From Siniperca chuatsi (taxonomy: Eukaryota > Chordata > Actinopteri > Centrarchiformes > Sinipercidae): a stretch of DNA of 64,000 nt. The notes below the pieces were generated by a model. It ran no database searches. It was not told where the DNA came from and saw only the letters and a program-made list of their open reading frames with translations. Positions 25,288 to 64,000 of this stretch are shown here, piece after piece. The stretch lies in assembly GCF_020085105.1 (NCBI RefSeq), contig NC_058062.1, positions 4,862,945 through 4,926,944 of the forward strand, in the 5' to 3' direction. Position 1 is the first letter of the stretch. Every line of letters starts with the position of its first letter. The position numbers and the translations under genes were made by a program.

Positions 25288-26236
25288 GGTCCCTCTGCCT
25301 GGCAGGCTACAGGTTCAATTATCTTAATTTTCCTCCTCTCAGTTTAGACAGATATTAAACACACCGTGGAGTATCACTGGGCGCTTCCAGTGAAATACTA
25401 AGAAATTAAATAACATGTCCTTTCGCTTTAAATTGTTAGCTTGTTTGCTCAACTGGTGAATGTGTGTTCGTAATGAGTCAATTCATATTTTTTCAAAGTT
25501 TCCGCAAAAATAACATTGTGGTGTGGTCAGAAAACTACAGATACCGTGAAAAAGGAAAGTTGTACCACCTGACGCCGAACTCGCTGACGGGAAATGGAGT
25601 TCCAACAGCTTCGGTCCACTCCCTAAAAACAGGCCTACATCGTGAGAAGGCCGAACAAACGTTATTCTACGTAATGGACGTTTATTTGCTCAGTGTAACA
25701 CATTTTTGCACATCAAATGACGAATTAAAGCTCTACTTGATCAATGTTTTGTTACCACTGGCCGAATAATTTTTGTGAAACAAAATCCAATCGTCTGTGT
25801 TAGCCGCTAACGCCATCTTTAGCCAAACAACAAAACAGGGGCGGTTGAGGGAGGGAGCAGGGACTGAAGAGGTGGGTCGGTAAGATATATGCTGGGACTT
25901 GTAGTTCAAATTTCGCTGGCCTTCACTTCCTCTAGTGCAGTTTCCCTCTTAAAAAAACTACATTCCCCTTGAGAGTAAAAAATGTAGCTTGCATTAAATA
26001 AGTCGCAGCGTTTAGGGATTGTAGTTTAGTTGGTACACCAGAAAACTCAAAAGCCCATTGGTACTAACCAAGACGGACTACACTTCCCGAGCTGTCAAGT
26101 GACGTTGTTATAATCATCGTTTTACTCGATGCGAGAAAATGCATCGGTGCCTCGGAGAGGTTGTTAAATTCCACGATAGATACACCGCTAATTTAATAAA
26201 AGCCAACTTTGACTGTAATTGTAATGTTTTAACAAC
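25288..26236. promoter_or_regulatory. Shared upstream region between armc5 (-) and the trihelix gene (+)
   Basis: The start codons of two divergent genes are 949 bp apart, with no other gene between. The sequence has elevated CpG near 25550-25620 and 26090-26160. No TATA box was obvious for either gene, which would suit a housekeeping bidirectional promoter, but the transcript starts are not known. Confidence 0.45.
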
Positions 26237-27225
26237 ATGGAGGTAATCGAGACAATTGTTATACAAAGTAGTGAAGTGGAAGGAAAGGAAACGGTCGTGT
26301 CCAGTGTGGACACCGATAAAACCAAAGCAGGTTAGTACACGCAGCCTGAAGTTAAACAGGTTTCATTCTGTCATCGCATGAAGCGCGGAGGGCCTGATGA
26401 GTGCGCAGTTTCTGCCTATCGCAGCGACTTTGGTCGTAATTCATACAATGTGAGTTACGTTAATGAGAATTGTATGTCGTCTGGTAACTTATGACTTCGT
26501 GTTTCAATCAGACAAGCTGTGTCACATAAGATTAATAAACATTAAAAACAGGCAAGAGGTTCAGAGCAAGGTCATAATTTATCAACCAATGTCATGATAC
26601 ACCTTTGTTTTCTTCTGTAGAATTTATATGGACTCTGCAGGCTACATGGCACCTTGTCAACACTCGACTTGAAATGGACCAGGCTTTTGACCAGCCAGTA
26701 TGCAAGAAAAAGAAACTTTGGGAGATGGTGGCGGAGAAAGTGAATGCCAAACTGAGGGAGTCAGAGGTCACTGATGTCACCGTGAAGGCCTACGAGTGTG
26801 ACCTCAAGTGGAGAAACATGCTGGCCACCTACAGGAAGAATGCTGAGAGGGCCAAGAGGCTTGGGGCGGCCAGCGTCCACTGGGAGTTCTTCAAGGCCAT
26901 GCACGAGGTTCTGGGTAAGAGCAGGGAGGAGATCGAAGCCCAGCGGAGGGCCAAGCTCAGTGGGACGAGAGTGGGCAAGGCCATAGCCAACAAGAGGTTT
27001 ACCCCTATTCTCCCTACACCTCCTGCAACGGCTGCTCCCTGCTCTGCCCGGCCTCCACAGGACGTCCTACAGCTGTACATGGAGCTGCAAGAGAGGAAGA
27101 TGAACATGTGGGCCCAGCAGAAAGCCCTGGAGGAGAGGAAGATAGAGGCCATTAACAACCTGGCCCAGGCCATCTCCAGCCTGGCTCAGAAGAACAGCAC
27201 AGAGATGTTAAAGGATGGACATTAG
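26237..27225 (+). CDS. Myb/SANT-like (trihelix) DNA-binding protein
   Basis: Two coding exons, 26237-26330 and 26621-27225, give 232 residues. Exon 1 encodes an acidic leader (MEVIETIVIQSSEVEGKE). Exon 2 starts with the trihelix domain at about residues 32-125. The helix-1 Trp is in FIWTLQATWHLV, helix 2 is KKLWEMVAEKV and helix 3 is CDLKWRNMLATYRKNAERAK. This resembles Myb_DNA-bind_4 domains of vertebrate MSANTD- and ZSCAN20-type proteins. The C-terminus is a predicted coiled coil rich in Glu, Gln and Lys (about residues 175-232). Poly(A) signals lie at about 27985-28005. Proteins of this class serve as the DNA-binding partner of the nuclease in Harbinger transposons, and a Harbinger-derived nuclease gene ends 1.9 kb downstream on the other strand. 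I do not recognise a named gene. A nuclear role in DNA binding is inferred. Confidence 0.85.
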
Positions 27226-29108
27226 GCTAGAAGAGACGGGAAGTGGATCTGAACTTCCCCGTGTGGTGTTTGCTCTTACCAAAAACTTTTATGATACTGC
27301 ACGAGGAAAACTCTTCGAGTGTGTTTTCAGTATGCACATTTGTACTGTTACAGTTTTAAGAATAGTTTGGCCAGTCTGTATTCTGTAGCGCTGAACAGCA
27401 GAAAGAGAGAATTTCAGAATGAATGAAAATACAGCAGTTCAGGAAACGGGACATATATACGAGACACAGACTGACATATCATACCCTGGGCAACTCTTGT
27501 TTGTACTGCAAGCAGATTACATGTCCTTTTCTGCTGATGTCCCTTTGGGTGTAATCATCACTTATTTTTATACCATAAGAGAGGAGTGAATTATGGTTGG
27601 CTGATGTTGGAGAGTAAGAAAAACAAAAATATTACTCACAAATAAGATTAATGCAGGCATTCCTATCATCACTACACCAGTTATATTGATATCATATGTC
27701 AACAACCTATGCAAGAGTACAAGATGATATTTTTCATGTGGGCCCCATTAACCGATAAAATGAAGTATTCATGAACAAGCTAACAGAAATGATCAATGAT
27801 TATTGTCATTGCTCAAGAGAAGTCACATTTTTCAGTGAAAACAATACACATATTTATACTGATAATTATTATTCTTAAGCAGTTTCACTAACAGTATTCA
27901 TAGACACACTTGTACTCTTAATGTATTAATAATATGCACTATGTTATCAGACAGTATGAACAACTTCACCATGTAATGTGTTCCAATAAACAGTCCTGCA
28001 ATAAATACTACCTTTGTGAATGTTTTGTTCACCTCTGGTTACACATTTGGCGGTGGACAAAGAATTAGAAACACTGCCATCTCTCTTGACTGTTTCATTG
28101 TCAAAGTTTTACCGGACATATTGTTAAGGTATCGTGTCTACCTTGACGCTGGAGCCTGGCAGAGCCAGAATTATGAACGCTCACTGCCCCACAGTGGGGA
28201 ACTGCAAACACTACATTTTTTTGCTGCTTTTTTAATATCAGTATAATCAATATTAATATCTATGTACAACTCATTATTAGTGTGATTATTACAGATAACG
28301 ACAGTAACATAAGTAGTGCCGATAACGGTATTAACAGACAGTTGTTTAAAATAGTTTTTCTTTGGTCTGGAGATTAACCTGGCAATGTTCATACAGTCAT
28401 CACTCTCAAAATAAATATGAGTGATCAAACTGAATACAGAAAAGATGTATATTCTTTATTCATTGCCCAATGATTTACTTCATTTGTCCTTTTCTGTCAA
28501 ACCGTCACATGTTCCTTTTGGCCCTCCACAGTTTCTAAGAGCCTGGATGGAAATCTCACTTGACATAAATCATTACTCTTTTCAGTGGATGTTATTTATG
28601 TTCCTTACCAGTATGCTGCTATTTACAGGTTTTATTGGCTGTGACATGTACTTCCACTCTGATGAAGAGGAACACTGGAAATACACTAGCATATACATTT
28701 CTGATTAACGATAGTGTAAGTCTAATTCCAGAATAAAGCTTATGTCCATGTCAGAAAAAAACAGTCAATAAGTCTATTTTGTGTGTTTATTTTTATTTTC
28801 TATGTGTAAAATGTAAAACAGGAGGAGAAACTGTTCTAGAAAAATGCAAACTCTTCCTCCAATATCATCATTTGTCATCCCCATTATGGTAAACAACAGT
28901 AATAACTATGCATTACCCAGCTTTACTGTGAAAAACTGTTAATTCACACTGTAAATGCTTTAACAGCAAACCTATCCCTGTTTTCTGATAGTATTAATGA
29001 GTGTTATGTGTGCAGACAGACCCAGATAGTAGAGATTCTGTTCAAATAAACCTTTATATTACAGAACTGTTCATTTACATCTATGAGCAGAAGTTTTCCA
29101 ACATCACA
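27226..29108. other. 3' flanks between two convergent genes
   Basis: Holds the 3'UTR of the trihelix gene to about 28.0 kb, with AATAAA at 27985, and presumably the 3'UTR of the Harbinger-derived gene from the right. No terminal inverted repeats of a Harbinger element were seen here. The open frames at 28016-28708 lack domain content. Confidence 0.45.
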
Positions 29109-31192
29109 TCATGTGCTTCCAGAACAAAAGTTTTTAAACAACAAATCTGAGATGGCGTCACGTCTGTGTACACCCTCGTCATCTACCTCGCCCTCTCGGG
29201 TTATGGCTTCCTCTTTCTCAACTTCTCCTTGAAGCACTTGCCCCATGTCTGAAAACACATTGTGCAACACACAGGCAGTCAGCACAACAGCTCTGGCTCG
29301 ATCATAGTTTCCAATATCCAGATACCTGAGCCTTTGAAATCTGGCTCTCAGGTTGGCCAGAGCCTGATCCAGGATGTGAAAATGCTCCTCCAGCGTCTTG
29401 TTGAAGAGCTCCTCTCTTGGTCCATGACTTCCTGGGTATGGAGTTAAAATCTGAGCAGTGAGCGGGTAGCCGGCTCTGGCCACCAGGCAGGAGCCAGAGG
29501 GCATCAGTTCAGGATGCTGTTTGAGTTTGTCTCTCAGAGCGCTGCCTCTGTCCACGTCTGATCCTTTACTGATCCTGCAGTGTAGGAACCGGCCCTTATG
29601 GTCGCATATGAGCTGAAGGTTTAGCCAGGAGTCGGGATGGGCCTCCTTCTTCATCCTCTTCACCTCAGGCACTGTGCTCTCCACATCATGTTTACCTATT
29701 GGCAGGCGGATAGGGATGCGGGTGTGTCCCAACACTCCCAGGACCCGAGGGACACCTTGATGCTGCTCCTCCTGCTCCTTCACTGCACTGGAGAGCGGGA
29801 AAAGGGCCTCTACAGCCTCACTGCCTGAGGAATATAGAGGAAATACCCCCACCATAAGCATTTTCAAGCATTTTTTTTTTACACTCAAATCAATGATAAC
29901 ATTGCACTGATCATCCAACAAATCAACCCACCGACTGGCCATCTGATGAGCGTCTCTTCCAGCATGTTGATGTGCTCACAGAAAGAAAAGAAGATCCTGT
30001 GGATGTTTCCTTTCTCCAAGTGGAAGCGTCGGGACACAGAGCGGTAGCTGACGCGCTCAGAGAGCAGAGTGAGGGACAGCAGGACAGTGTGGGACAGGGA
30101 TAAGCGAGCCCGTCCAGCCATTCGAGCCCTGGATTTGGAGCTTTGAAGCAGGTCTGCGATGTGCTGATGAGAGGGGGGACAATGATGTTACAGTAGCCAA
30201 CATCAGTCAGTCAGGAGATTCAACAGGTATTTCATGTGAAATTGATCGTAATCGTATCACAATGTGATCATAACCATGGTGAAAATAGTGACAAATGATG
30301 ACTCTCAAAGAGTGTATCTCACAGGTCTGACAGCAGAAAAAAATATTTATCATATTTATCTAAAAATATTATTATTGGTTGGATTATTTATTCAGAACAA
30401 GGAACAGCTAGCGAACATTGGCCGAATGCAGAAAATGTTAACATTTGGTCTGAAGTGGAACAAAAAAGGGAATTTATGTAAGTTGATGAAATGTGTATGT
30501 ACGTGTTTATGTATGTGCAGGTATTTGTATATGTATATACTGCAGGTACCACAGGTCTAACCTTGGGAGGGATTTTGTTTTCTGCCTGTATGTGTATTCA
30601 TTGTGTTTAAACTCTCCCCCCTTTCACAGTCATTCTTAAAATGTCGTTGCTATGGGTTAAGTGAAAATTGTTGCCTTGGGTTTGAGATTATTTCACTTAT
30701 TTCAAGCGCAGTTTCACTTGGCAAAATAAGGTGAATATATCAGTACAAAGAAAAACACTCGTGAATAAGTGTTTATGTGCACTGCGGATAAGTCTATATC
30801 TTACCCTTCTTAAACTTATTTTAAGAAGGGTAACAGTCTCAGGTAACAGTTAGTAGACCAGATCACAAGAGACACCTGACTGATACCTTGACTGCAGCAG
30901 TGTCTACAGGATCCTTCGGTCCTCGGGGATCTGGTGAGTCCTCCACTGGGGGACTGGATGTTCTCGTCTGTAAAACTTGGGGCTGCACATTATCTTGACT
31001 CTGCATTAACTGTACGTATATAGCAGGAGGAGGCTGAGTTTTGAGTTTTGCTATCAGGTCAGCCTCCAAGATCTCCTCCACCGACTGGTCCAGCCGCTGC
31101 TCCAGCTCGCCCGAAGACAGCGGCTGCCAGTCCCGTTCCACCATGTCCAGCACGGCTCTGCCCGCCGATAAAACATACTCACTGACGTCCAT
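29109..31192 (-). CDS. Harbinger (PIF) transposase-derived protein, HARBI1-like, catalytic residues lost
   Basis: Three coding exons, 31192..30887, 30163..29932 and 29824..29109, keep one frame and give 417 residues. Residues 1-102 form a unique acidic leader (MDVSEYVLSAGRAVLDMVER) that I do not recognise. Exon 2 carries the helix-turn-helix found upstream of Harbinger nucleases (VSYRSVSRRFHLEKGNIHRI). Exon 3 carries the DDE_Tnp_4-type core, with the family landmarks GVPRVLGVLGHTRIPI, DSWLNLQLICDHKGRFL, AGYPLTAQILTPYP and the end helix AVVLTACVLHNVF. Against HARBI1 and active Harbinger nucleases, the three catalytic acidic positions read Gly212, Arg296 and Asp332. The first two are non-acidic and the third is a Glu-to-Asp change. 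The frame is open throughout, so this looks like a domesticated host gene with no nuclease activity. It may still bind DNA or a Myb-like partner, as HARBI1 does with NAIF1. Confidence 0.87.
30801..30833. other. Perfect 14-bp hairpin in intron 1 of the Harbinger-derived gene
   Basis: Arms 30801-30814 (ttacccttcttaaa) and 30820-30833 are exact reverse complements around a 5-base loop. No function is evident. Confidence 0.5.
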
Positions 31193-31474
31193 TTGTCTTG
31201 GTGATCGATAGTCTATGTTCGCATACCAGACGGCATAATTTCTCCATACATTGAGCAGTTAATCAAGTTATTTGTAGCTGCATAGACTGGAATCGCGTAT
31301 TATCGTTGCTAGCAAAATGCTCAGCTAGCCTGCTAGCTAACGTACGCTGCCTTCAAGTGCTGTCGGAAAGATCGCACGAGCAACAAGCACAACTTGTGTC
31401 AACATTTGCAAAGTGGTAACATTTTATTTTACGTACGTTAAAGAATCCGTTTTCCACTTTATAAATATTGAGGT
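31193..31474. promoter_or_regulatory. Upstream region of the Harbinger-derived gene
   Basis: Sequence preceding the start codon at 31192 on the minus strand, with several CpG dinucleotides and short gctagc repeats near 31310-31340. No TATA box was found. Promoter assignment is by position only. Confidence 0.3.
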
Positions 31475-31760
31475 TGGAGCTGAAACATTTCGTCGATTAA
31501 TCAATTATTCGACCGACAGAAAATTAATAATTTATCAAGCAAAAATGCCAAACACCCTCTGGTTTCAGCCTCTCAAATTCGAGGATGTGATGCTTCTGTG
31601 TTTTACATGATTGTAAATTTAATACCGTTTGGTTTTGAAATGTTGGTCAGACAAAATAAGCAATTTGAAAACGTCGACTTGGGTTCTGGGATATTGTGAT
31701 GGGCATTTATTACCATTTTATTGGCCAAACTCTTAATTGAGTGAGAAAACAATTAACAAA
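31475..31760. mobile_element. MITE-like element, AGAGCTGCAA family, degenerate copy
   Basis: Starts ggagctgaaacatttcgtcg, followed by attaatcaattattcgaccg. It shares the central block about a question of phase tcgacttgggttctgggata with the 3651-3988 element. The right terminus is eroded. Confidence 0.55.
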
Positions 31761-33518
31761 ATAATCTTTAATTAATATATTTAGTTGTTGTCCTAATTGA
31801 GTTACTTTCTTTGCACATATTGCTGACTATTTTTTCTAGTTCTCCTAATACAAGCTGATACATACTAGCACAACACAACCACAAATGTAAAGGTCACCCT
31901 AGTGATAGTACAAGCCACCCCATGTGATTGTGCAGGTATGTATCCATTTTTAAAAAGATCTCAAATGGCAGTCATTGCCCCTCATCAGTCTGCCATTACC
32001 TTCTGTACTAGCTTATGTTCTTGTATGACTCTTAAATTAACACAAAACTATACGAGATATCAGCTGCTGTTTATTAATGTAATGCTAAATCAATAATTGA
32101 TTGTATTCCACCAACTGCAGAGTGCACAAAATTCATAATATCTACAAAATCAATATAGTGTTGTAATGTTTACTATAAACTACACAAGTATACAAAAACA
32201 CCACAGTGCACAGGGGTGAAAAACAGTTGTTTTAATGTTAAATCAGTTACAAGTGCAACTTTGATCACGTCCCACTATTTAACAGCCTCAAATTGCAAAT
32301 GCAGTAATGTCATCAATTTCATTCAACACCCCCAGGTCGGAATATACTTTCCTGTTGTAACTAATGGAGGATTTTTGTTTTTAAATTGTAGTTTTCCAGG
32401 TCATGAGACCCAGTGTTATACTTTAATTTGACGTTTTGATGTGCAGAGGAGTTCATTTCTAATTCACCTTTAATTTTAGGAAAACGTGTATTAAGGTATT
32501 AATGGTGTATAATACAACACAAGTTGCAGCATGAACTAAACCCAATTGGGTAGTGGTACTGGGATAATGGAGAGTTATAACTCATTACATGACAAACTAC
32601 CTGTTTAACTTGAAACAGTTTATGTTTACAACTCATCAGTATCTCCAAGATGTCATGAGCTACAAACAAACATTGGAGAGGAAAGTTGGTTAGTCCTCAC
32701 CTTTGTAAGTAAAGTAAAAAAACAAAAAAAACAATTAAAAGTCAATAATCACTATTAATTATCAGTTGCTGCTATGGTTGTCAGTCATTTCATTTTCAAC
32801 ACCAGGTCCACGCCAGCGTTACTTGTGTTGTAGATACCCACAACTTCTTTGAGCAGCTACAGTATGAAAAGTACTACTGATAAGTACCAAGAAATGTTCA
32901 CCTTAATGCCAGATCTTCTGCCAACATGTCAATCTATTTTATTTCTGGTTCATATTGTTCAAAAGTCTTTGAAATACAGATAGTAACTTAGAAATTCACA
33001 AACTCCTAGCTATTGTCGTAACACATATCCAGGCCAAAGACCAAAACAATGTTAAATCCTAGTAATATAGTTTAATAAAGAAACACACAAACATAAAAGC
33101 CTAAAAATGTCACACCTTATCAACTCCCACCTTTAAGCCATCAAAATAGGCAGCAATAACTTTACCCCAAATAAAGACTAGAATGAATTAAATACGAGGT
33201 ACAATTCTTTATGTTCAGCCTTTACCAATCCCATGGATGACTGACAGTGTCGTGACAAGTCCGTCAGGTATCTCTGAAGGGTCTTGTGTGAAATTATCAA
33301 TTTATCTAGCATGCGTTCACCGATTTCAGGACAAATGAACCACTTTGAAGCACCTCCCTTCAAATTTACAACAAGGGGAATCCATGTTTGTAATTGTTTA
33401 TGCCCAGCTGAAGATCTGTTGTCGGCAAGTAAAACTCACCCGCTGAGACATTACTTCCCAAAATTCAACCCCTCCCTCCGACCCCCTGTGCGTCCCTCTT
33501 GTTTACCCGCCCACTCCC
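31761..33518. other. Gene-free stretch downstream of elob
   Basis: AT-rich sequence. The last few hundred bases next to 33519 probably include the elob 3'UTR; ATTAAA and similar hexamers occur on the minus strand but none is clearly the signal. No other gene or repeat is supported. Confidence 0.4.
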
Positions 33519-35893
33519 TCACTGTACAGCCTGCTCGTTGGCTGTGCTGCCCGAGTCCTGGGGCTTCATGACGTCAGGGAGCTCTGGGGGAGTGGAGAAA
33601 GACTCGATCCTCAGCTGCTCAAATGAATCATCTGAGAGAACGACAGAGAGAGAAAGTGAAAAGACAAAGAAAGAATATACATAACACAAAGTAAATCAGA
33701 GCAGAAAAATCAGAGCTACTAACGTTCAAAACAACCTGCTCAGCTCAGACTGAGCTAAGAGTGGCTTGAAATAAAACAAGTGAATGAATGTTGCCACGAC
33801 TCTGAAAATGGTCTAATATGGGGCTGAATGAAAGGGTGAACTACTTACCACTCAGACGGAAAGCTAATCCCACCGTGGCTGGGGCCTGAGGTCGGGCTGT
33901 TTGATTTGTGAAACCACAATTTCCAAGAGTTTGACCATCGTTAAGCATTACGTCATCCTGGGGAAGAACATTTAAAAAAGTAGTGTAGACTCAGCTGTTC
34001 ATTCACTACATTTTTATTTTTCACGTTACACAGTGCACATTATCAGCCTCTCATTAACTTAGTGAACCTAACAAATCAACGTACTTCATCACATTCATGA
34101 AAAATCATATTAGAATCCAATATACAGCAGTCCTGCTCATTGATTTGTAACGTTGCACTCTTAAGTCTAATACAACCAGATATATTAAAGAGATAACTAA
34201 CTCAAACGATATTAGGACTGCAACTAACAATTATTTTTCCAGATTAATCTTGTTGATCGGAGAAAATTCTGGACTGAAAGATGGTAATTTACCTTAAAAA
34301 GCCTCTGATCTTCAGGTGGCCTCTTTAAAATACCTTCCACAATGCGCTTCAGTTCATAGACTGTGGTAGACTCTTTGGCATCTGTGAAGATGGTCGTCTT
34401 GTGACGTCGGATCATTAGAAACACGTCCTGAAATGAGATCAAGTGACAGAGGAAAGAGTGGAAATGAGACACCGATGACTCCCAAGAATATTCACATCAG
34501 AAAAACTTCATTGTTGATGCTCTTTTCTCAAACATGAAGCTGTAAACCCCCGGAGGCACAACTCATTCATGTTGTGGTCTTTTAATCAGGTTCTTCCAAA
34601 GCTAGAAAAACAACCAAGATATGTAAGTAAGATATGCTGCATCTATAACACTCTGTTGTCTATTTCAAACCCATAAGCTCCACTAAGGAATAAAGATAAT
34701 TTAAGTGTAAATTCAAATAATTCATAATCTACCCATTACTGGCCATCTCTATGGTAAAACCTCCAGAAAGTGCCTGTTGCCATCAGCAGATGGAAGCTTT
34801 ATCATTTGCAAATATTGATCAATTGAAGCAAAAGCATAGGGGTAATGTACAACATATTGTGGATGAGTTTTGATCAAAACTCGTACAGTATACTGAGCCA
34901 CCACACAAAAGGATGCTCAAGCAAAGCCCTGACACTGAGTTCTTGATGAATTTCATTGATGCAGTCTGAATATCTGATGATAATGCAGACGAGCAATATG
35001 ACAGATGTAAAGACTCCTTAAACTCGTTATTGGATCAATTTTGGATGCAGATACAGTTTCTTGTTTATGTACTTCAACTGCCTGCACTATCCAGGTTATA
35101 ACTCTAGAGGTTGAGCTGTGTGACAGCAGTTGTGGCGAAGCTGGCAGTAACAGGTTTGGTGTGTTCAACTAGTTGATAAGTCGGGTAAGGTTTATTTAAA
35201 AACCCAGCTCTACACCATAACGCCACACGAAGGCGTTTAAAGACCCACGGTGCGGCAGCTGCTAGCTAGCGTCATGACGAGCTATCTTAGCTGTGGCTAC
35301 TAAGGTTCAATCAACTGTTAGCTGAAGTAGCTACCTCAACAAACTGGGAATGGAAATTATATGCCCCCGAGCTACCATTTACTAAAACACACATTCTGTT
35401 GGAACCTGCCTAATGTTAAAATATCTTCATCGTTAACACCATCCGAGTAATTTAATCAAGATTATAACGTTAGCCGAGCTACAGCAGCAACTGACAACTT
35501 TAGCTAGTTAGCTTCTTTACGGCTAGCTAGCCATTTGATCAAAAGCAAAGTTTGTTGGTTGAGCTGTCACTTATCCAAAACAATGTTAATTTCTATACCC
35601 TTTTGTCTGGACCCTTCACCGCTAACCTTGCGATCGACTTGAGCATTATAATGCAATGTCTCGCTAGCGTGAGCTAGTGTGTTGACGTTAACCAACGTAG
35701 GGGAGCTAACGTTAACCCACGATAGCAAGGGTTAGCTAAACAAAGGCATCAGCTTTTGGATGATCGCTTTTTGTGACAAGCTTGGTTCAGATACTGACAG
35801 CACACATGTTAACGCTCAGGGAAAGACTTGATGACTAACTAAAGTAAGGTTTAGTCAACATGTTAAGCTGTATCTGTTTTCCTCACTCACCAT
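33519..35893 (-). CDS. elob: Elongin B (with an apparent one-base frameshift in exon 3)
   Basis: Elongin B is a ubiquitin-like protein that pairs with elongin C. Together they link BC-box receptors such as VHL and SOCS proteins to CUL2 or CUL5 ligases, and they form part of the elongin elongation factor. Exons on the minus strand are 35893..35891 (the ATG alone), 34427..34293, 33958..33849 and 33631..33519. Exon 2 encodes [20 protein letters not shown] and onward, almost identical to human. Exon 3 runs [19 protein letters not shown] in frame. The expected [15 protein letters not shown] then continues only in the next frame, because a run of four T at 33900-33903 (AAAA on the coding strand) is one base longer than the family expects. 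Exon 4 ([15 protein letters not shown] to stop) also needs the shifted frame. Without the extra base the product would be 119 residues, against 118 in human. Such strict conservation on both sides points to a homopolymer sequencing error rather than a dead gene. Confidence 0.9.
34214..34264. mobile_element. Fragment of the AGAGCTGCAA MITE-like family
   Basis: Reads aggactgcaactaacaatta followed by ttccagattaatcttgttga. Only one terminus remains. Lies in elob intron 2, just after exon 2 on the minus strand. Confidence 0.5.
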
Positions 35894-37324
35894 TTCTTGC
35901 GGTTGATCTCGCACAGAAAAAAAAGCACCTCCACTGCACAGCGACAACTGTGAGCTCACAGCAGCACCAAGACAGCCACAGCTGCAACTCCAAGATCAAC
36001 CAGCAGGTGGCGCACCTGAACTTCCTTCTTCTTTTAATGGCGAATTGCAACCGGGTGGAGCCATGGGCGGAGCATTATCGCCACCAACTGTAGAATTTGC
36101 ATATTTAGGACAAACAAAGATGACAGGAGTATTTAGGAGGATTTATTTGGTTCAGTATGTTCCAGTCTAATCCTACTTTTTAAACACTCTTCTTTCCTAC
36201 TTTTCTCAAGTAATCATCCCACTCCTACATCTGAATCCCATGTTTGAATCTGAAATTCACAAATTAGGGGACCTAAGTGGGTTACACAGTTGTAAGTTGC
36301 AGCTCAATACTCCATCACCATTCAACAAAAAATGTATTTTGGTTTCTCATGGAGCTTCGTCCCTTTGTACAGTTCTGTAGGATCAAAGCCCTTTTAACAG
36401 CACTGAACAGAGCCTCTACATCAGACCAACTATAAACCTTCATGTCTTCCTCCCTGGTGAAACAAACAGGTGTTTCTTTTCACTGGCTGCTTCTTTTATG
36501 TGGCAGGACTTATTTCCTTCCTCTCAGCCTGATAGCAGCTGTCACCACAGTGAGTGGGACAGCTGAACTGACAGCAGCCAAGACATACAAATCAAGCCAG
36601 GTACCACGAGCTGTGTAAGATCAGGGTTTGTTTTTTCTGTTAGGGTGTTTATGACGTGGCTTGGTTGGCTGATCAGCGGTTGCTACAAAAAATGTGATAC
36701 AGAAAAAGGTTTAAAAAAAAAAAAAAAAAAAAACCTAAAACCTTACACACATACGCAGACACACTTGTCATACTATTTTTAAATTGTTGGGGTTTTTTAA
36801 TCGTTTGATGCATTGTAGAAAACTTGTCGCCTGACACAAGCTCCTGAAACTCTGCTGTTGTTCTGTTTGACGCATTTTGTATGAAAGATTTCAAATAACT
36901 GTAGTAGTTTTTACCACAAGACTGTAATCTGTAAACAAAGCGGCTCCAGCTTGTCTTTGCATAACTTGAAATTGCCTTTGCAAATGCAACTCAGGCATAA
37001 CAGATAGTATTTACAAATGATCGCATCTAACGTGTTAACGCATTAAAATAGTTCAAAACAAGTCATGGTGCTGACAATATGTACTGCTGACAAATTACTT
37101 CATTTTGAAAGCACATTGATTATGCAGGAGTATTTTTGTAGTCTCATTTTGCATATTGCATGCGTAATCAATGCAATTCTTATTTAAAGCGTGTTTATTG
37201 ACGTCTTACATTTTATAGGGATAAAACAATAACAAACAATCAGGCACAGCAGCCTTAAATTTGCCAACTCAAACTTTCTAAACTGTTGGCCATGTTGGAC
37301 TGTAAAAGACCTCTATTTAGTTTG
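35894..37324. other. Upstream of elob and 3' flank of the integrase-derived gene
   Basis: Includes the elob 5'UTR and promoter next to 35894. Also holds an A run near 36713-36733. A minus-strand AATAAA (plus-strand tttatt near 37341) may end the integrase-derived transcript. No further gene is supported between 36.1 and 37.3 kb. Confidence 0.4.
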
Positions 37325-37972
37325 TCAATGCATTTAGCATTTTTATTACAATTCATTGTAGTACAATGTTAACAAAAAATAATAAAACATTACATCCAAA
37401 AATATGATACAAGACTGAAAATGGCCTTCTACTAAGATGATGAACAAAAAATGGGTAAAAGTGAAAATAAACTTTGAATTGAACAGGTTGAAAATTACAC
37501 TGAGTCCTTGGGAGAGTGGAGGACGCTGTAGAAATCTGCACTTTCATCTGAGATGCCTGTCCAGTCAACAAAGTCCTCATCCTGGTCAAACTATCAGGGT
37601 TACCACGTTCCCACTGTGGCCATGAAGTCCAGATGAATTTCAGCATGTTTCCATGACAATCCTTATCAAAAGTCAAAGCACTTCCATGGCCAAAAAATAC
37701 TCCAAGCTCTGTTTTATTTCCACATCAATTGACCTGAAAAATAATAATAATAAGTGAGAAAAGTTGTTACTATTAAGTGACCTGTTTGTAAAATTCCCTA
37801 ATATTCTCAAACTTCTCTGAGATTGTTTTCAAATTCAGTAACTTTCTCTTTCTTGAAAACACCTCATGAAAATGCCAAGATATTCCACAAATTCCATGAC
37901 CCCAGAAAAATGAAGAATATTATATTAAAGTATTGTATGTACAAAAATATATTAAACTCACCAAATAAACTT

Positions 37973-40900
37973 CTATCTAACCACGAAAGCACTCTCTCGG
38001 ATCTTGGAATAAGAATACTGTGGAACAGAGAGGCAAGAACACAATAGTCACTTTACAGTATATAGAAACTCATCAAAACTCAAAAGGTTCAAAACCTCCA
38101 CTTACATTCAGTCCTCTGGGGGATTGGACAGGCTCCAGTCCCTTACAGCAGAGCATTGAAAAGGGCCTTTCCTTAGTCTTTGAATGCTCTTTGAAACACA
38201 GACTGAAAACCTTGGCAGGCAGGTAGACATCCCAATCAGCTGCATGCTCCTCTATTAGATCACTTACCATCCTGTTGGGGAGCGGCAATTAGAAAAGCTA
38301 AAACATTAACAGGCAGGCATGGTGAGAGAATTTTTCAGTTCCAGGAGTGTCCTTACAGTATTTATCAGTTTAAAAGGAAAAATTCACAGGATACACTTGT
38401 GCACTGCTGAGCGGAGCTACAATACCAGTTGTGTACGAACACTTGACCTCTGAGCCCATTTCTCTGCTCTGGCTAACTGGCCAACATCACATCAATTTGG
38501 AGCTGGGATCAAAGCAATACTGATACAGTAATATGAGAATAAATAGTGTCTGGGATGTTTCACATTTGCAGTTGTGATATAGCTTAAATGTGTCTTTTCC
38601 TGGTCTTGACAGTTACATGATACAATTTTCAGCTATGGGATGGAAATGCCTCTGTGTGGGCCATAATGTCCACATTACAAATAATTATTTTAGTCTCTTT
38701 GATCTGACAAGAACGTCTCAATTTGAAAAACATCAGAACAAAAAAGATGAGATTGGCATGAGATGGAGAATAACAATCACCTCAAAGCGCGCATTTTACC
38801 GCAGTATAATGTGATAGTAAAATATTGTGCAAAATGTTACAAATAGCAATAAATACCAAATCTGTACAGACCTGTCAATCAGCTGCTGTGTGATCAAATC
38901 TGCAGTGCCAGTCTGCTGATGATAGACGACAAGAGCGATGGTGACCTTCAGCTGATCTTTCAGTTCTCTGTTGATCTAGCATGGGGATACATTCACACAG
39001 TGTATCTATGTGAGACACTGGCTGATTAGGACACAATATTACACCAATACTTTATTATAAAACAAAATGTGCACTGTGTAGCGAGCTTAAGTCCCACCCC
39101 AACTCCTTGCTAGCGTCTGTCCCACTAGCATCTGGGTGGAATTTATCATAGAAGGTTTCTTTCTTCAGTCTTTCTGAAAAGCTGAAACTTATTCCTGTGT
39201 TTTTATGTACATATTCTAAGCTACATGGGAGTCTTCTATTATACTGGATAGTCAAATCCAAGCACATGGTTATTTTAACCAAGATAAAATGACAATTATT
39301 TTGTTAGCATTCAACAACAACAAATCTTATGCTGCATTCACATCATATGGGATCGATGACAATATAGCACTATATCCATTCAATTTGGTTTTAAATGAAC
39401 CTTCAATGGCAGACTTTGGCTGTTGTGAGGCATCTTTGTTAGTTTGGTTTTCTATATGTCGGATTACAACTTGGATGTTGATGTGAAAACTATTTATAAG
39501 TCAAAAACGGGTAATTACGATAACTCCTTAAGCTTTCTATAATAATGTGAGCAGTTCAATCACCAGTGCGCTCACCTTGTGGACTATGTCATGAGGCAGT
39601 CTGGAGAGGATTCTGAGCGGGTATCCAAAGTGGGCGATGATGTCCACGATGTGCTTCGCCACATGTGAAGGGAGGCACGACTGCATAGGCACAGCTTCCA
39701 CCCACTTGGAGTGGTAGTCTGTCACAGTCAAAATGTATTTGTGTCCGTTCACTGTTTGGGGCAGCGGTCCTCTGACATCCAGACCAAGCCACTGCCACGG
39801 CTCTTTCACCTGCCATCACAATATTATATCATGCAATAATACAATGTGACTGCAGTAATAATCCCAACCACTTTAGTTTGTTGCAATAAATTCAGGTAAT
39901 GATGTTGTAACTTACCTCTATCACGTTTTCAGGATCTTCACATTCTGTCTGAAAATTACAGAAGAGCACGTCATAATATAGAAGTCATAAAAGACAAAAT
40001 ATTAAAGGTTTAAAATCATGACGACTACTTACACTCACATTATCATCTGGAGCCCACTGAATATCCTGTCGGTGAATGTGAAAAATTACACATAGACAAA
40101 TTGGTTATAAATATTAAATAACAATAATGAAGGTAAACATCTGGCAACAAAAGGCTTGTCATATCATAACTGCCATAATTTATGCTAAAAATAAACAAAA
40201 ACAATGACGTCACTAAGTTACCAAGGCATAATTAGTAATAAGTAATAGATAATACCTCTTACCCGTGGTACACAGTAATCTCCATGGAAGAAATGTGGAA
40301 ATGACTCGATCTTCATCAGCCCTTCATCTACTATAATCCTCCATTTGTCAGACTTTTTTGGGTCTTTGTCTCTGAACATAAAACCAGAAGAGGTCAACAC
40401 ATTATAAAGAGGAAACAATCCAAATGGGTACGAACTTAATACAATACAGGAACTTAGGTTAAAGCTTTTGCTGATTTGTCTGAAAGTGTGAAACTGTTAC
40501 CTCCTCACAGTTTCTAATGCAGAAAATCCCAAAAATGTGTGAATTAATCCAATATCATTACAACCTCTAGTATACTTGTAGTAGAGGATCACAACTAAGT
40601 TACTATATAAATGTGTAAAAATGCACAATTATAAAGGGCATTTTTAAACTACTTTCAGACATAGACTGTAGACAAAACCATTAAATCGGGAGAATAATTG
40701 GCAGATTAATTGATAATGAAAATAATCATGACTTGCAACCCTTATTTATACATCTCCTCCTGGCTACTGATGCAGATAATTATACAAATGCAAGAAAGTC
40801 ACAAAGGTTCTGGAAGGGAGTGCAATAAATTCAATCTAGTAGCTGGGTAACGGTCTCACTGTAGCAGCCCTAAAGAAACTGGTTAGTCAGAAGATAACTG

Positions 40901-41300
40901 CCCTCTCTCTCCTAAATCCTGTTTTCTTTTGTCTCGGGGCTTGTAAAATTAAGCTTGCAGGCATGAAACTGAATACACAAACATATATAACAAAGTTTAA
41001 AGGCAGAAGCCTACACACTGTAACATTAAGATTACAGGTACATAACTGTATTTCCAAGCAAATCTCTTTCATTTATATAATATGAGCGACAGTAGAATCA
41101 TGCACTGAAACTGAATTGACAGTAGACTTATGTATTTACGTCCACATATTTGTGTGGTCGATAAGAGAGCTTTCTGATTCGCTGCACACCGGATGGCCCG
41201 CTTCAACAGGTGACAGCGGCGTGCACGCCTACCTCGACCACATGGCCCATGCCAACACAAACAGGTCGAGGGAGATCGATGGGACCGAGAAGTGATGCAT
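37973..41300 (-). CDS. Integrase-derived host gene (GIN/Ginger-like)
   Basis: Eight coding exons on the minus strand, 41300..41233, 40371..40263, 40065..40039, 39948..39916, 39809..39576, 38975..38872, 38271..38106 and 38017..37973, keep one frame from ATG to TAG. They give up to 261 residues. A second in-frame ATG at 41243 is an alternative start. The fifth exon opens the integrase core (EPWQWLGLDVRGPLPQTVNG, then ILTVTDYHSKWVEAVP). The next two carry the later core blocks (VVYHQQTG, then HAADWDVYLPAKVF). The first exons (to about residue 79) do not show the usual zinc-binding HHCC domain. The stop lies just before a further donor, so a non-coding last exon starting near 37735 is likely. It looks whole and spliced like a host gene. 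It resembles vertebrate GIN1/GIN2, known from integrase-bearing GIN (Ginger) transposons. Which of these it is, and its function, are not clear from the sequence. Confidence 0.75.
40680..40742. mobile_element. Fragment of the AGAGCTGCAA MITE-like family
   Basis: Contains aattggcagattaattgata followed by aaaataatcatgacttgcaa, matching the terminal part of the 3651-3988 element. Lies in intron 1 of the integrase-derived gene. Confidence 0.5.
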
Positions 41301-41636
41301 GTAATTCAGACTTGCGTAAAATCATATCGTGAGCATTACTGTCCATGCTGACAGTTATTTGTCAACTAGGAAAGCTACTACGGTTTTATCCTGCAGGCCG
41401 ACATTGTTGTTTGTTTTGTCAGCTGACAACTGCGTGGTTGCCGCCGCTGGCTGACAGAGTGCACTCCATTTAAACTGTTTTCCCGGCCTTTGCAGGTGCA
41501 CGGAAATGGAGCGGACCCTGTGCACGAGTGGAGGGTGATCAAAGCTAACAAACCGCATGCTGCGCACACGCATCTCGTTTTCAGATCGCCTGCCAAAACG
41601 CTCTGAATAATTATAAGACAAACATATCGGTAAGAA
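41301..41636. promoter_or_regulatory. Compact divergent promoter between the integrase-derived and MADF genes
   Basis: Only 336 bp separate the start codons of two genes on opposite strands, 41300 (-) and 41637 (+). The sequence is GC-richer than its surroundings around 41440-41590 and has no clear TATA box. Shared regulation is likely from the spacing. Confidence 0.5.
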
Positions 41637-43505
41637 ATGTCCGTCTGGAAAGAAGAAACCGAGGATCAGCTGGTCAGCATGGTCCAAGAGAGGCCGGCTC
41701 TGTACGACATTACAGAGAAACTTTATGCCAACCGAGTGAAGAAAACAGAACTGTGGCGGGAGATAGAAAATAAACTCGGGATATCAGGTGAGATTATCTT
41801 CTCAAGCACTGACCCGCATTGTGGCTGCGAGGAGTGCGCGCCACGGGCTGCCGTGCTGCTTCGCCAGCCGGTGTAGCATAGCTGCTCCCCTTTACAGAGC
41901 TAGCAAGCTTGTGCTAACGTAAACAAACAAACGGGGCTAACCCCTTCATAATGCAGTATGTGACATGATTTGAACATGCTACTTGGCTTCACATCTGGCT
42001 GTGACTTCCAGAGAAGGAGCTCAAGAAGAGGTGGGAGTCTCTACGGACGCAGTACACTCGGTACAAGAAATGTGCAGATCCAGGGAGCCGTGGAGCGATA
42101 ACGACCGGGAGGCAGCAATGGATCCTGACCCGTCTGCAGTTTTTAGAGCCCCACAGAAAAAGGAAGGAGGCCGCTTCCAACCTTGAACTCAGGGTACGTG
42201 GACTGTTTTATTTACCGAGCAGTAAAACCACAGTTAACTGCTGCGTTGTCGCCATTTTCCAGAAGCCTGTGTACCTGTTTGTGTCTATTCAGCATGGCCG
42301 GATTACCCTGTTTAGGAGCCCTTGGCAAAAAAATAAATAAAAATGCTGTTTGGCTCATGTTGCCTCCAAGTTCCCATCAAGTACATCATAGATTGTGGTT
42401 ATATAAAATTAGACCCAGAAACCAACCAGCACTCCTATACTGGAATACTACCTGGCCCCAGGTTTTCTGTTTGTCAGTTAGTTTGTGGTAATTTGATGAA
42501 ACACAACTCTGTTGAGGAAACGGCACCACATGAACACAGCACAAACTAAAATGATAAAGATGTAGGACCTAGATTCTGACATAGGGCCCGTTTACAAGAC
42601 AGGGCCACAAGATTACGTAATAATGCAGGATGCAGTTGATATTGTCATGTAATGATGCAACTTCCCAAACAAATTTGCATATAACACAAAAAGCAAGTGA
42701 CACAGTGAACCCTGGACGTTTGGAGCTGGTAATCAAGCCTTGCTTTTCAGCATCAGAGTTAGTCAAGTTGCAACGTGTTGACTATTAATGGCACGCTCCC
42801 ATTATCTTCCACAGTGTCTTTTTTTGTTGTGGTTTCTAAATCACATATTTTTTTGTTGTCAAAACTTGTCTACGCCATGTAGGAAGCTCAGTTCACACCA
42901 GACCTTGACGGACATTTTAAAAACACTTTATTGTGTTCCTTGATGTGATTTTTTTTTGTTTTCTTCTACAGGAAACTTCAGCTGCTGGTTCTGATTCAAC
43001 CTCAGATGGCATCAGCTACATCAAAACTGAGGTGCCATCCAGCCCGCTCTGCAGTGAGACCCAATGCAGCACCCCTACATATGAGGCCTGCATGTCTGAA
43101 CAAGAGATAAAGCCATGCACTCCCTTTGAGGAGTCCAGCATCTCTGAAGCAGAGTACACACCCAGACTTCTCAGAGAGGAGCCTTGGCCAAGCACCTCCA
43201 GAGAATCCAGGCCTCTGGCAAAACGCAGCAAGAAACAGCTGGAGGAGTCCACTAGTGAGGAGTCAACAAACTTATTACGCGTCATCAGTAAAACCCTGGA
43301 GACTTTGGCTACTAGGGATGACCGCAATGATGACGTCTCAGCGTACTGCAAAAATCTTGAAAGCAAAATGAGGAAGTTGCCACAGCACATACTCCCACAT
43401 TTCCAGCATGAAGTGGACACTCTTCTCTACAGATACCTAATTCTTACTTCTTATAATCATACAGGTCAAACATCAGGGTCTCACTGTTCTCAGCATCAAA
43501 TGTGA
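41637..43505 (+). CDS. MADF-BESS-like DNA-binding protein
   Basis: Three coding exons, 41637-41787, 42012-42193 and 42972-43505, keep one frame and give 288 residues. Residues 1-105 form a MADF-type Myb/SANT domain. Its landmarks are EDQLVSMVQERPALYDI, the helix KKTELWREIENKLGIS, then KELKKRWESLRTQYTRYKK and WILTRLQFLEPH. The middle is Ser/Thr-rich and acidic, including a KTE motif that could be a SUMO site. The C-terminus (NLESKMRKLPQHILPHFQHE) resembles the BESS-like end of teleost MADF proteins. A poly(A) signal AATAAA lies near 43662. MADF proteins are usually transcriptional regulators, and MADF-type proteins are also the second gene of PIF/Harbinger transposons. I do not recognise a named orthologue. 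It is divergent to the integrase-derived gene and convergent to the THAP gene. Confidence 0.85.
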
Positions 43506-43707
43506 TGCAGAGGTCAGTGAAGTATATTAAGGTTACCACTGATGCATCATTTTTTACTTTTTTCCTGTTACATTTTTGGATTATATGTGTTGATTTATTA
43601 ACTGGGGAAAAAAATGTACACAAACCTTGCTAAGACATAATGGTAGTAAAGCAAGTATACAATAAAAACAGTGGTGCGTTAAAACTTCCCTGTCTATAGG
43701 CACATAC

Positions 43708-45211
43708 CCAGCAGGCTCTTCTTCTGGGTGGCTGGGCTCTTTGTTCTGGACGCTTCGCTTTGCTGTGGCAGGAGCTGGACTCGTCTGTGAGGCTTTAACA
43801 CCAGGTGGCTGGGTTCACAATACAGGGAAACAACACATACTGCGTTTGAAGTTTGAAGACGTTTGTACTGATTGTGGTTGTAAGCAGTTAGTATAATGAC
43901 TCGACTGTGCTAAAGTGAAGAACAGTTTGAATAAAGACCAAATTTATGTTAATCTACTTTTTCAACCCCAATCCATGAAAGCTTGAGCAAACAATGTTTT
44001 GTAAGGACCAACAAGCTTGCTAAAATGACCACAAATGACAACTGAAACACAGAATTTTAACAGTTAAATGTCAATATAGTATGCCCTCACCTTGTATTTC
44101 TTACTTCTTGGGTTGATGGAAGCCTACATCAGGGGGATAGTGACAGTAATTGCATGAGATCTTTATTTTAGAGGATTATCGGAAACAAATGAAGATGATT
44201 TTTTTTAAAATTAAGCATTGGCCTATAAAAGGGTTTAGGGTTTTATTGTCTTGTTCTGAAACTACTTTTTTCACTCAATGACGCTGAGTAACTACATACA
44301 AACCTTTCTTTTCTGTGTGTCGTCAGGGGATGAAAATATGGTGGGAACTGCATTTTCTTTAAGTTTCACACATTTGCCTGTTCGGTCAATGTATTGTTCC
44401 TCAAAATGATTGATGCACAGCACAGAGAAGCGAGATGGGGTCCAGTCCTTCCACTTCATGTTGATAAGCCATTTCTTGAGTTTTCGGGGATTGTACAAGG
44501 GAAACCTGTAGTAGCAGACAAGTCATTAAAACAGTCCTAACACTAATGTGTGCAAATCTTTCCTGTGTGAAGGAAACACAACATTGAACTCCATTTAAAA
44601 GTCAGTAACTTTGGGTATTAGCTCTCATTGGCAAAATTCAACTTTTGCACTCCATGTAGCCAGAAAGAGACTGGATTACAGGGCTGCAAACAGATTTTCA
44701 TTATCGATTAACCTGCCGATAATTTTCACAATAAAATCTAACCTTAGGAAAACAGTGGAAAATCTTTTGTCTGACAAACAGTCCATAACCCAAAGATATT
44801 TAGTTTATAATGATAAACAGCAAATGCGAAGCTAAAACTAGGCAATGTTTGGTGTTGTTGCTTGAAAAATTACTTAAAACGATGAATCGATTTTCAAAAT
44901 AGGTGCCATTAATTTTCTGTCGATCGATTAATCTAACTTGTTTCAGCTCTACTCAATATAGTTAGCTTGAGTGTCTTTGAAATATGGCTTTTCTTACATT
45001 ACCAGTTATGTTAGATAAAACGTTACGACGAGCTGGAAAAAGAAAGAAATGGCTAATGTGAATCAAGTTGATGTTTATATTAGCTAGCTTGACCATCCAC
45101 AAATCAAGCTATTCCCTGCTTTCGAGTGCCAGTTGTTAATACTCACTTAAAAAACTTCACATCTGAATCGCTGGAGTTTTCGCAGTGGTAGGCACATTTA
45201 TATCTTCCCAT
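43708..45211 (-). CDS. THAP-domain protein, C-terminus not resolved
   Basis: Exons on the minus strand are 45211..45147, 44505..44304, 44123..44091 and 43808 to about 43708. The first two encode a complete THAP zinc finger of about 85 residues: C2CH ligands in KCAYHCEN and LCINHFEE, FPLYNPRKLKKW between them, and the closing AVPTIF motif. THAP domains bind DNA and are shared with P-element transposases. After AVPTIF the protein is short and basic, with no visible coiled coil. The last exon may splice at a donor at 43707 or read through to a stop nearer 43.6 kb. I could not find a further exon, so the C-terminus is open. The paralogue (THAP1, 2, 5 and so on) cannot be assigned. Confidence 0.8.
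44679..44952. mobile_element. MITE-like element, AGAGCTGCAA family
   Basis: Begins cagggctgcaaacagatttt, contains attatcgattaacctgccga and gtcgatcgattaatctaact, and ends in cagctct. Both termini are recognisable. Lies in intron 1 of the THAP gene. Confidence 0.65.

Positions 45212-58062: not shown

Positions 58063-64000
<5,938 letters not shown>

Follow-up and report, generated by a model that had tools for sequence, protein, structure and literature searches.

Five genes of transposon-linked families clustered between ARMC5 and RUSF1 in Siniperca chuatsi

Gene content, copy number and density of the cluster

We analyzed a 64,000-nucleotide stretch of the Siniperca chuatsi genome (RefSeq assembly GCF_020085105.1, contig NC_058062.1, here C21, positions 4,862,945 to 4,926,944), referred to below as the window, against the background of the whole 719-Mb genome of 65 contigs. 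Between ARMC5 and RUSF1, the window carries a cluster of five multi-exon genes within 19,000 bases, belonging to the trihelix, Harbinger-nuclease-derived, GIN2-type integrase, MADF, and THAP families, with ELOB situated among them. The members of this cluster are of known kinds and are unusually concentrated.

The five genes were spliced by hand, each as one joined frame. In the resulting models, all internal junctions are GT-AG and every joined frame is open, confirming the initial annotation, which had placed five multi-exon genes with intact-looking frames here; two model ends, the first exon of the integrase gene and the last exon of the THAP gene, are guesses. For comparison, 15 of 20,000 random 300-base pieces and none of 20,000 random 600-base pieces, drawn from window stretches taken as noncoding, were stop-free in one frame by chance. 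The trihelix gene (26237..27225, + strand; exons 26237-26330 and 26621-27225) encodes 232 amino acids (aa) and matches Myb_DNA-bind_4 in Pfam (2.5e-11). The Harbinger-nuclease-derived gene (29109..31192, - strand; exons 31192-30887, 30163-29932, and 29824-29109) encodes 417 aa and matches DDE_Tnp_4. The integrase gene (37973..41300, - strand) was modeled with eight exons (41300-41233, the guess, 40371-40263, 40065-40039, 39948-39916, 39809-39576, 38975-38872, 38271-38106, and 38017-37973) and encodes 261 aa. The MADF gene (41637..43505, + strand; exons 41637-41787, 42012-42193, and 42972-43505) encodes 288 aa with a Pfam match of 2.3e-17, and the THAP gene (43578..45211, - strand; exons 45211-45147, 44505-44304, 44123-44091, 43808-43708, and the short guessed last exon 43601-43578) encodes 134 aa with a Pfam match of 3.3e-16. 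Four of the five genes exceed the Pfam cut-off, the exception being the integrase core (rve, 0.0053; 17.4 bits against a cut-off of 32.6), and the identity of this gene rests on residue marks because its rve score is below the cut-off. The membership of all five in transposon-linked families is in this way upheld, by Pfam for the trihelix, DDE_Tnp_4, MADF, and THAP genes and by the residue marks for the integrase.

An open frame at 34224..34496 on the - strand contains the only ELOB exon modeled. The ELOB call depends on this one 45-aa exon piece, whose best PDB match is Elongin-B (8.4e-23) and whose Pfam ubiquitin match (0.0027) is below the cut-off; the PDB match supports the earlier placement of ELOB inside the cluster. 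ARMC5 and the trihelix gene are divergent, the trihelix and Harbinger-type genes convergent, the integrase and MADF genes divergent, and the MADF and THAP genes convergent. For the integrase and MADF genes, the predicted start codons lie 336 bases apart; since the two are near each other and divergent, a shared promoter is possible.

The genome was searched at E <= 0.001, and matches were counted as rows, which are exons or pieces rather than genes. All candidates were scored for the trihelix (4/4), Harbinger-type (29/29), MADF (39/39), and THAP (29/29) queries, and the best 146 of 302 for the integrase. No second full copy of any of the five genes was found in the genome among these scored candidates. 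The trihelix query gave two rows, both from the window gene. The Harbinger-type query gave seven, namely three window exons and four weak matches at 25-34% identity; the MADF query gave six, three from the window and three others, the best of which reaches 67% over 63 residues on C3; and the THAP query gave 11, three from the window and eight others at 32-38% identity. The integrase query returned at least 81 rows from the best 146 of 302 candidates, five of them from the window, with most of the others at 22-31% identity; the examined ones looked retroelement-type, except for a decayed relative on C4 and a GIN-like multi-exon gene at C21:4.296 Mb. A family of mobile copies, whose absence is one mark of a domesticated gene, was not seen for these genes among the scored candidates; decayed pieces of relatives were found on C4 and C3.

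We also asked how often the five families occur together, using 150 of 153 DDE_Tnp_4 matches, 49 Myb_DNA-bind_4 rows, and three hand-picked places of GIN type, together with the THAP and MADF rows, which number 100 and 38 genome-wide at E <= 0.001 and show that both domains are common. Among the matches listed, this locus is the only one with four to five of the families within 20 kb, and the next-densest place, at C21:4.296 Mb, has three. In a null of 2,000 draws, the maximum was three families in 53 draws, two in 1,936, and one in 11, and never more than three. This null is crude, with points placed randomly in 40% of 24 equal contigs, and it flatters the result, since the families were picked after the window cluster had been seen, rows are exons or pieces, and only the best candidates were scored. 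A single multi-gene transposon bearing all five genes was rejected, as there is no relationship between the families, the cluster encloses ELOB, and among the matches listed at most three of the families occur together elsewhere. Five families in 19 kb, unique among the matches listed, make it possible to test the idea of co-option-prone loci.

The trihelix and Harbinger-type genes

The trihelix protein matches Myb_DNA-bind_4 best in Pfam, with MADF as a secondary match above the cut-off (2.2e-05), and its PDB match is the plant GT-1 trihelix (E 0.0064). No relatives were found for it in viral contigs, and neither it nor the integrase had an NCBIfam match above the cut-off. The DDE_Tnp_4 match of the Harbinger-type protein (2.4e-11, 43.9 bits against a cut-off of 24.8) covers profile positions 29-158 only. 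When this protein is aligned with transposases from its own genome, G212, R296, and D332 stand where a Harbinger-type element on C10 has D, D, and E. Because all three catalytic residues are lost, we class the gene as Harbinger-derived and not as a working nuclease.

To compare gene order, we drew on 90 transposase rows and 49 Myb_DNA-bind_4 rows, grouping transposases by identity to a stop-free transposase protein on C7. Where a Myb_DNA-bind_4 row lies within 5 kb of a transposase with at least 33% identity to the C7 protein, the two are convergent at 7/7 loci, and where the identity is 25-27% the pairs within 5 kb are divergent at 3/3 loci. At six of the seven convergent loci, a matched row is interrupted by one or more stop codons, as expected of old element copies, and the C7 locus is without stops. 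The window trihelix and Harbinger-type genes are arranged tail-to-tail, as in the C7 lineage. Judged from this arrangement, an origin of both genes in a single element is likely.

Several observations weigh against that origin. The start-to-start distance of 2,630 in the window pair is not diagnostic, because convergent pairs span 442 to 3,008 bases. In a five-sequence tree, the Harbinger-type protein forms a long branch between two element lineages, and a search with the C7 protein did not list it. The window trihelix is not significantly similar to its C7 counterpart (E 0.97 at best); it matches the Myb protein from the C10 element, whose genes are divergent, slightly better though still weakly (E 0.013). 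The 10 inverted pairs seen in 25300-33500 are short and imperfect, none of them convincingly framing the two genes as terminal repeats, and target-site duplications were not searched; loss of terminal repeats is expected in an old domesticated copy.

The tree placement and the lack of significant similarity to the C7 partner would both suit a history in which the trihelix gene, the Harbinger-type gene, and the other members came separately into an insertion-tolerant locus and the tail-to-tail order is coincidental, as would the fact that the cluster already contains other such families. Such independent arrivals have to account for a partner type and order shared with all seven C7-lineage loci, and the density of five families, well over the crude null, also counts against them; we consider this history rather unlikely. 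The initial annotation had envisaged either insertions followed by repeated co-option or an old multi-gene arrangement retained in fish. Co-option fits, because there are no second copies, the frames are open, and active-site residues have been lost, whereas a series of independent insertions is not the preferred interpretation because the trihelix and Harbinger-type genes resemble the two genes of one element.

Under the preferred single-element origin, the two genes would descend from an old Harbinger-like element of the tail-to-tail lineage and would have remained neighbors once the nuclease active site had been lost. Following the model put forward for HARBI1 and NAIF1, the trihelix protein may then bind DNA and recruit its catalytically dead partner, which would serve as a scaffold, to complexes acting in chromatin or transcription. 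Both the interaction within this pair and its nuclear function are inferred from such comparisons. HARBI1 and NAIF1 likewise consist of a DDE_Tnp_4 protein and a Myb/SANT-like protein put forward as a pair, and a review calls their function unknown (PMC8616336). Unlike them, the window genes are adjacent and convergent with the triad lost, and the likeness drawn here is at the level of the family. In human, HARBI1 and NAIF1 are not known to be linked.

In insects, there are documented cases in which both Harbinger proteins were co-domesticated from a single insertion: the PIF transposase/MADF pairs DPLG7-DPM7, APLG-APM, and LPLG2-LPM2 retained both genes, often adjacent (PMC9710019). These pairs differ from the window genes in belonging to insect lineages and in having a partner termed MADF, while the window trihelix matches Myb_DNA-bind_4 first and MADF second. 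No linked vertebrate pair of transposase and partner, and no comparable cluster, was found reported in open-access papers, consulted mostly by title and abstract. A still-linked vertebrate pair, if true, would offer a single locus at which the sequence of events, the disappearance of catalysis, and the maintenance of the partnership could be dated.

Other loci of these families were noted during the searches. At C7:24679609-24682943 (loci L035 and L067), a stop-free 352-codon DDE_Tnp_4 frame is convergent with a Myb_DNA-bind_4 trihelix (3.7e-16). This transposase has Q in the E column and its closest relatives are at 33-46% identity, mostly broken; the locus may be another co-opted pair. The C10 element (C10:10066800-10068500, locus L036) combines the D, D, E transposase with a divergent Myb_DNA-bind_5 frame, both stop-free. 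Tight single-strand groups of Myb_DNA-bind_4 matches at C23:11480064-11487628 (seven rows) and C23:11740150-11743243 (four rows) represent a tandem trihelix family.

The integrase, MADF and THAP genes

Aligned column by column to integrases from this genome, the window integrase has D90 with D at +20, R149 with D at +4, and D183 with E at +16, and all four GIN2 residue marks are present. In the published description of GIN2, most species keep the first D, followed by an aspartate some 20 residues later, the second D is absent with an aspartate four residues away, and in fish the E is replaced by D with a glutamate 16 residues away (PMC3424704). The same study gives GIN2 eight coding exons and a retained HHCC finger. 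In fish as in other vertebrates it locates the gene between OGFOD2 and ABCB9, in an order that also includes VPS37B (PMC3424704). The window gene was modeled with eight exons, of which the first is a guess. Its flanks, in contrast, are ELOB and the MADF gene. No H-x3-H ... C-x2-C spacing was seen by eye in the 261-aa model, the 5' end of which is uncertain. Because the locus differs from OGFOD2-ABCB9, we call the gene GIN2-type and not a gin2 orthologue. Judged by its sequence, it belongs to the domesticated integrases of GIN2 type, and its triad is not intact. Its position outside the published GIN2 locus would mean one of three things: a move, a duplication, or renewed domestication. A further parallel is the crustacean Imagin, described as a single-copy, multi-exon integrase-like gene that has lost its DDE (PMC12863088); Imagin derives from the Ginger1 lineage and is a separate domestication.

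The initial annotation had proposed measuring dN/dS for each gene, and this yielded weak within-genome evidence of constraint for the integrase only, against a decayed relative on C4 (63% identity over 35 residues and 42% over 45). Over 80 codons, the differences between the two fall on 38.8 of 51.5 synonymous sites and on 62.2 of 188.5 nonsynonymous sites; with the counts rounded, a Fisher test gives 7e-8. This comparison, weak at such a length, points to protein-level constraint on the integrase over at least part of the history shared with the C4 relative.

The integrase and the short THAP gene are also the members for which decay or misprediction would be suspected first. The sub-threshold rve score, the unseen standard HHCC spacing, the guessed integrase first exon and THAP last exon, and a third-position GC of 0.48 in the THAP gene, the lowest of the five, would all suit such relics. 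Against this, the integrase has seven consecutive phase-consistent junctions without a stop and a synonymous excess relative to the C4 sequence, and the THAP protein has a complete C2CH (C6, C10, C52, and H55) with AVPTIF at 74. That some members are decaying relics or mispredictions is, on this evidence, very improbable.

A true gin2 was looked for elsewhere in the genome. The C4 relative itself (C4:2324193) was rejected, consisting of two pieces in repeat-rich DNA with neither OGFOD2 nor ABCB9 seen by eye in 19.8 kb. A search with Mod_r (PF07200) for the VPS37B neighborhood gave eight rows on C3, C5, and C14, and none of the 81 integrase matches (best 146 of 302 candidates) lies within 3 Mb of them, a weak indication that gin2 is missing from its published locus. 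Integrase matches at C18:26.35, C7:1.42, and C10:7.91 Mb were read by eye as retroelement-type. A match over 82 residues was recorded at C20:22.93 Mb. Separately, the interval C21:4291000-4302000 (locus L029, row 4301213), which lies 0.6 Mb away, combines an rpl27-like gene and a multi-exon integrase gene of GIN-like character (rve 1.2e-10) with an open frame for THAP (8e-19) and a match to DDE_Tnp_4 (5.3e-28). Here, an ISL2EU-type element with THAP may sit next to a GIN-like gene.

The MADF and THAP genes each carry the defining DNA-binding domain of their family. The former had been described as MADF-BESS-like, of which the MADF part holds and the BESS part is not supported, no BESS motif being reported by Pfam at E <= 1 with weak matches filtered. 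The THAP protein resembles THAP1-like proteins in its C2CH, its AVPTIF, and its PDB match to THAP1 (1e-12). It differs in that the model is only 134 aa long with an uncertain last exon, and it is likened to the family and not to a particular THAP gene. Because both domains are common in the genome, the two genes need not be insertions here, and each could be an ordinary family member rather than a new insertion. A second MADF locus at C3:31421143 was rejected, as it holds an exon-2-like piece only and the other four proteins have no match in 29.7 kb; the comparison with this piece (omega 0.51 over 60 codons) is not informative. Elsewhere, three MADF matches on one strand lie within 11 kb at C18:24017460-24028090.

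In teleosts, ADF-1L of miiuy croaker is likewise a Harbinger-derived MADF gene, and it is reported to recruit KAT2B and to regulate itself and an adjacent gene (PMC11893794). ADF-1L lies beside a 7SL gene and is likened to the window MADF gene at the level of the family; by analogy, a local regulatory role of the window gene is possible.

The abundance of THAP and MADF rows would also fit a cluster of ancient host genes, differing in age, that have domain families in common with transposons, in which case the locus would be an old gene neighborhood and not a record of insertions. The GIN2 study, which makes that gene older than the divergence between cartilaginous and bony fish, is in keeping with such antiquity, whereas the OGFOD2-ABCB9 location it gives is not (PMC3424704). 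Given this location in particular, we hold an ancient neighborhood to be distinctly unlikely. A further point against it is the human ARMC5-RUSF1 interval, which we take to contain other genes, TGFB1I1 and SLC5A2.

Possible function of the cluster and its flanks

Our best explanation for the whole locus, which we consider about evenly balanced between right and wrong, is a host-gene cluster of transposon-type proteins, in which the trihelix and Harbinger-type pair came from one old Harbinger-like element and lies alongside a GIN2-type integrase and separate MADF and THAP genes. The integrase, MADF, and THAP proteins would act as separate DNA-bound regulators, and for the cluster proteins we infer a function as DNA-guided, catalytically dead chromatin factors. 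A more far-reaching version is tentative and, on present evidence, somewhat doubtful: that a vertebrate transposase and its partner, co-domesticated from one insertion and still adjacent, lie beside a moved or duplicated GIN2-type gene and form, together with the MADF and THAP genes, a working set of chromatin regulators kept clustered.

On the gene order around the cluster, no report of ARMC5-RUSF1 in a teleost was found in the open-access papers, again consulted mostly by title and abstract. A LIM motif, sought with one six-frame pattern, had no match in 25301-46000, and no SLC5A2 search was made. One study describes tgfb1i1 as absent from zebrafish and gar and single in other teleosts (PMC5091871). 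The flanking genes were identified by Pfam matches to ARMC5 (5.8e-54), a COX6A gene (5.6e-09), and the RUSF1-type domain (7.4e-12). At the far end of the window, a 510-codon open frame on the - strand (62469-63998), which has no Pfam match at E <= 0.01, reaches the window edge.

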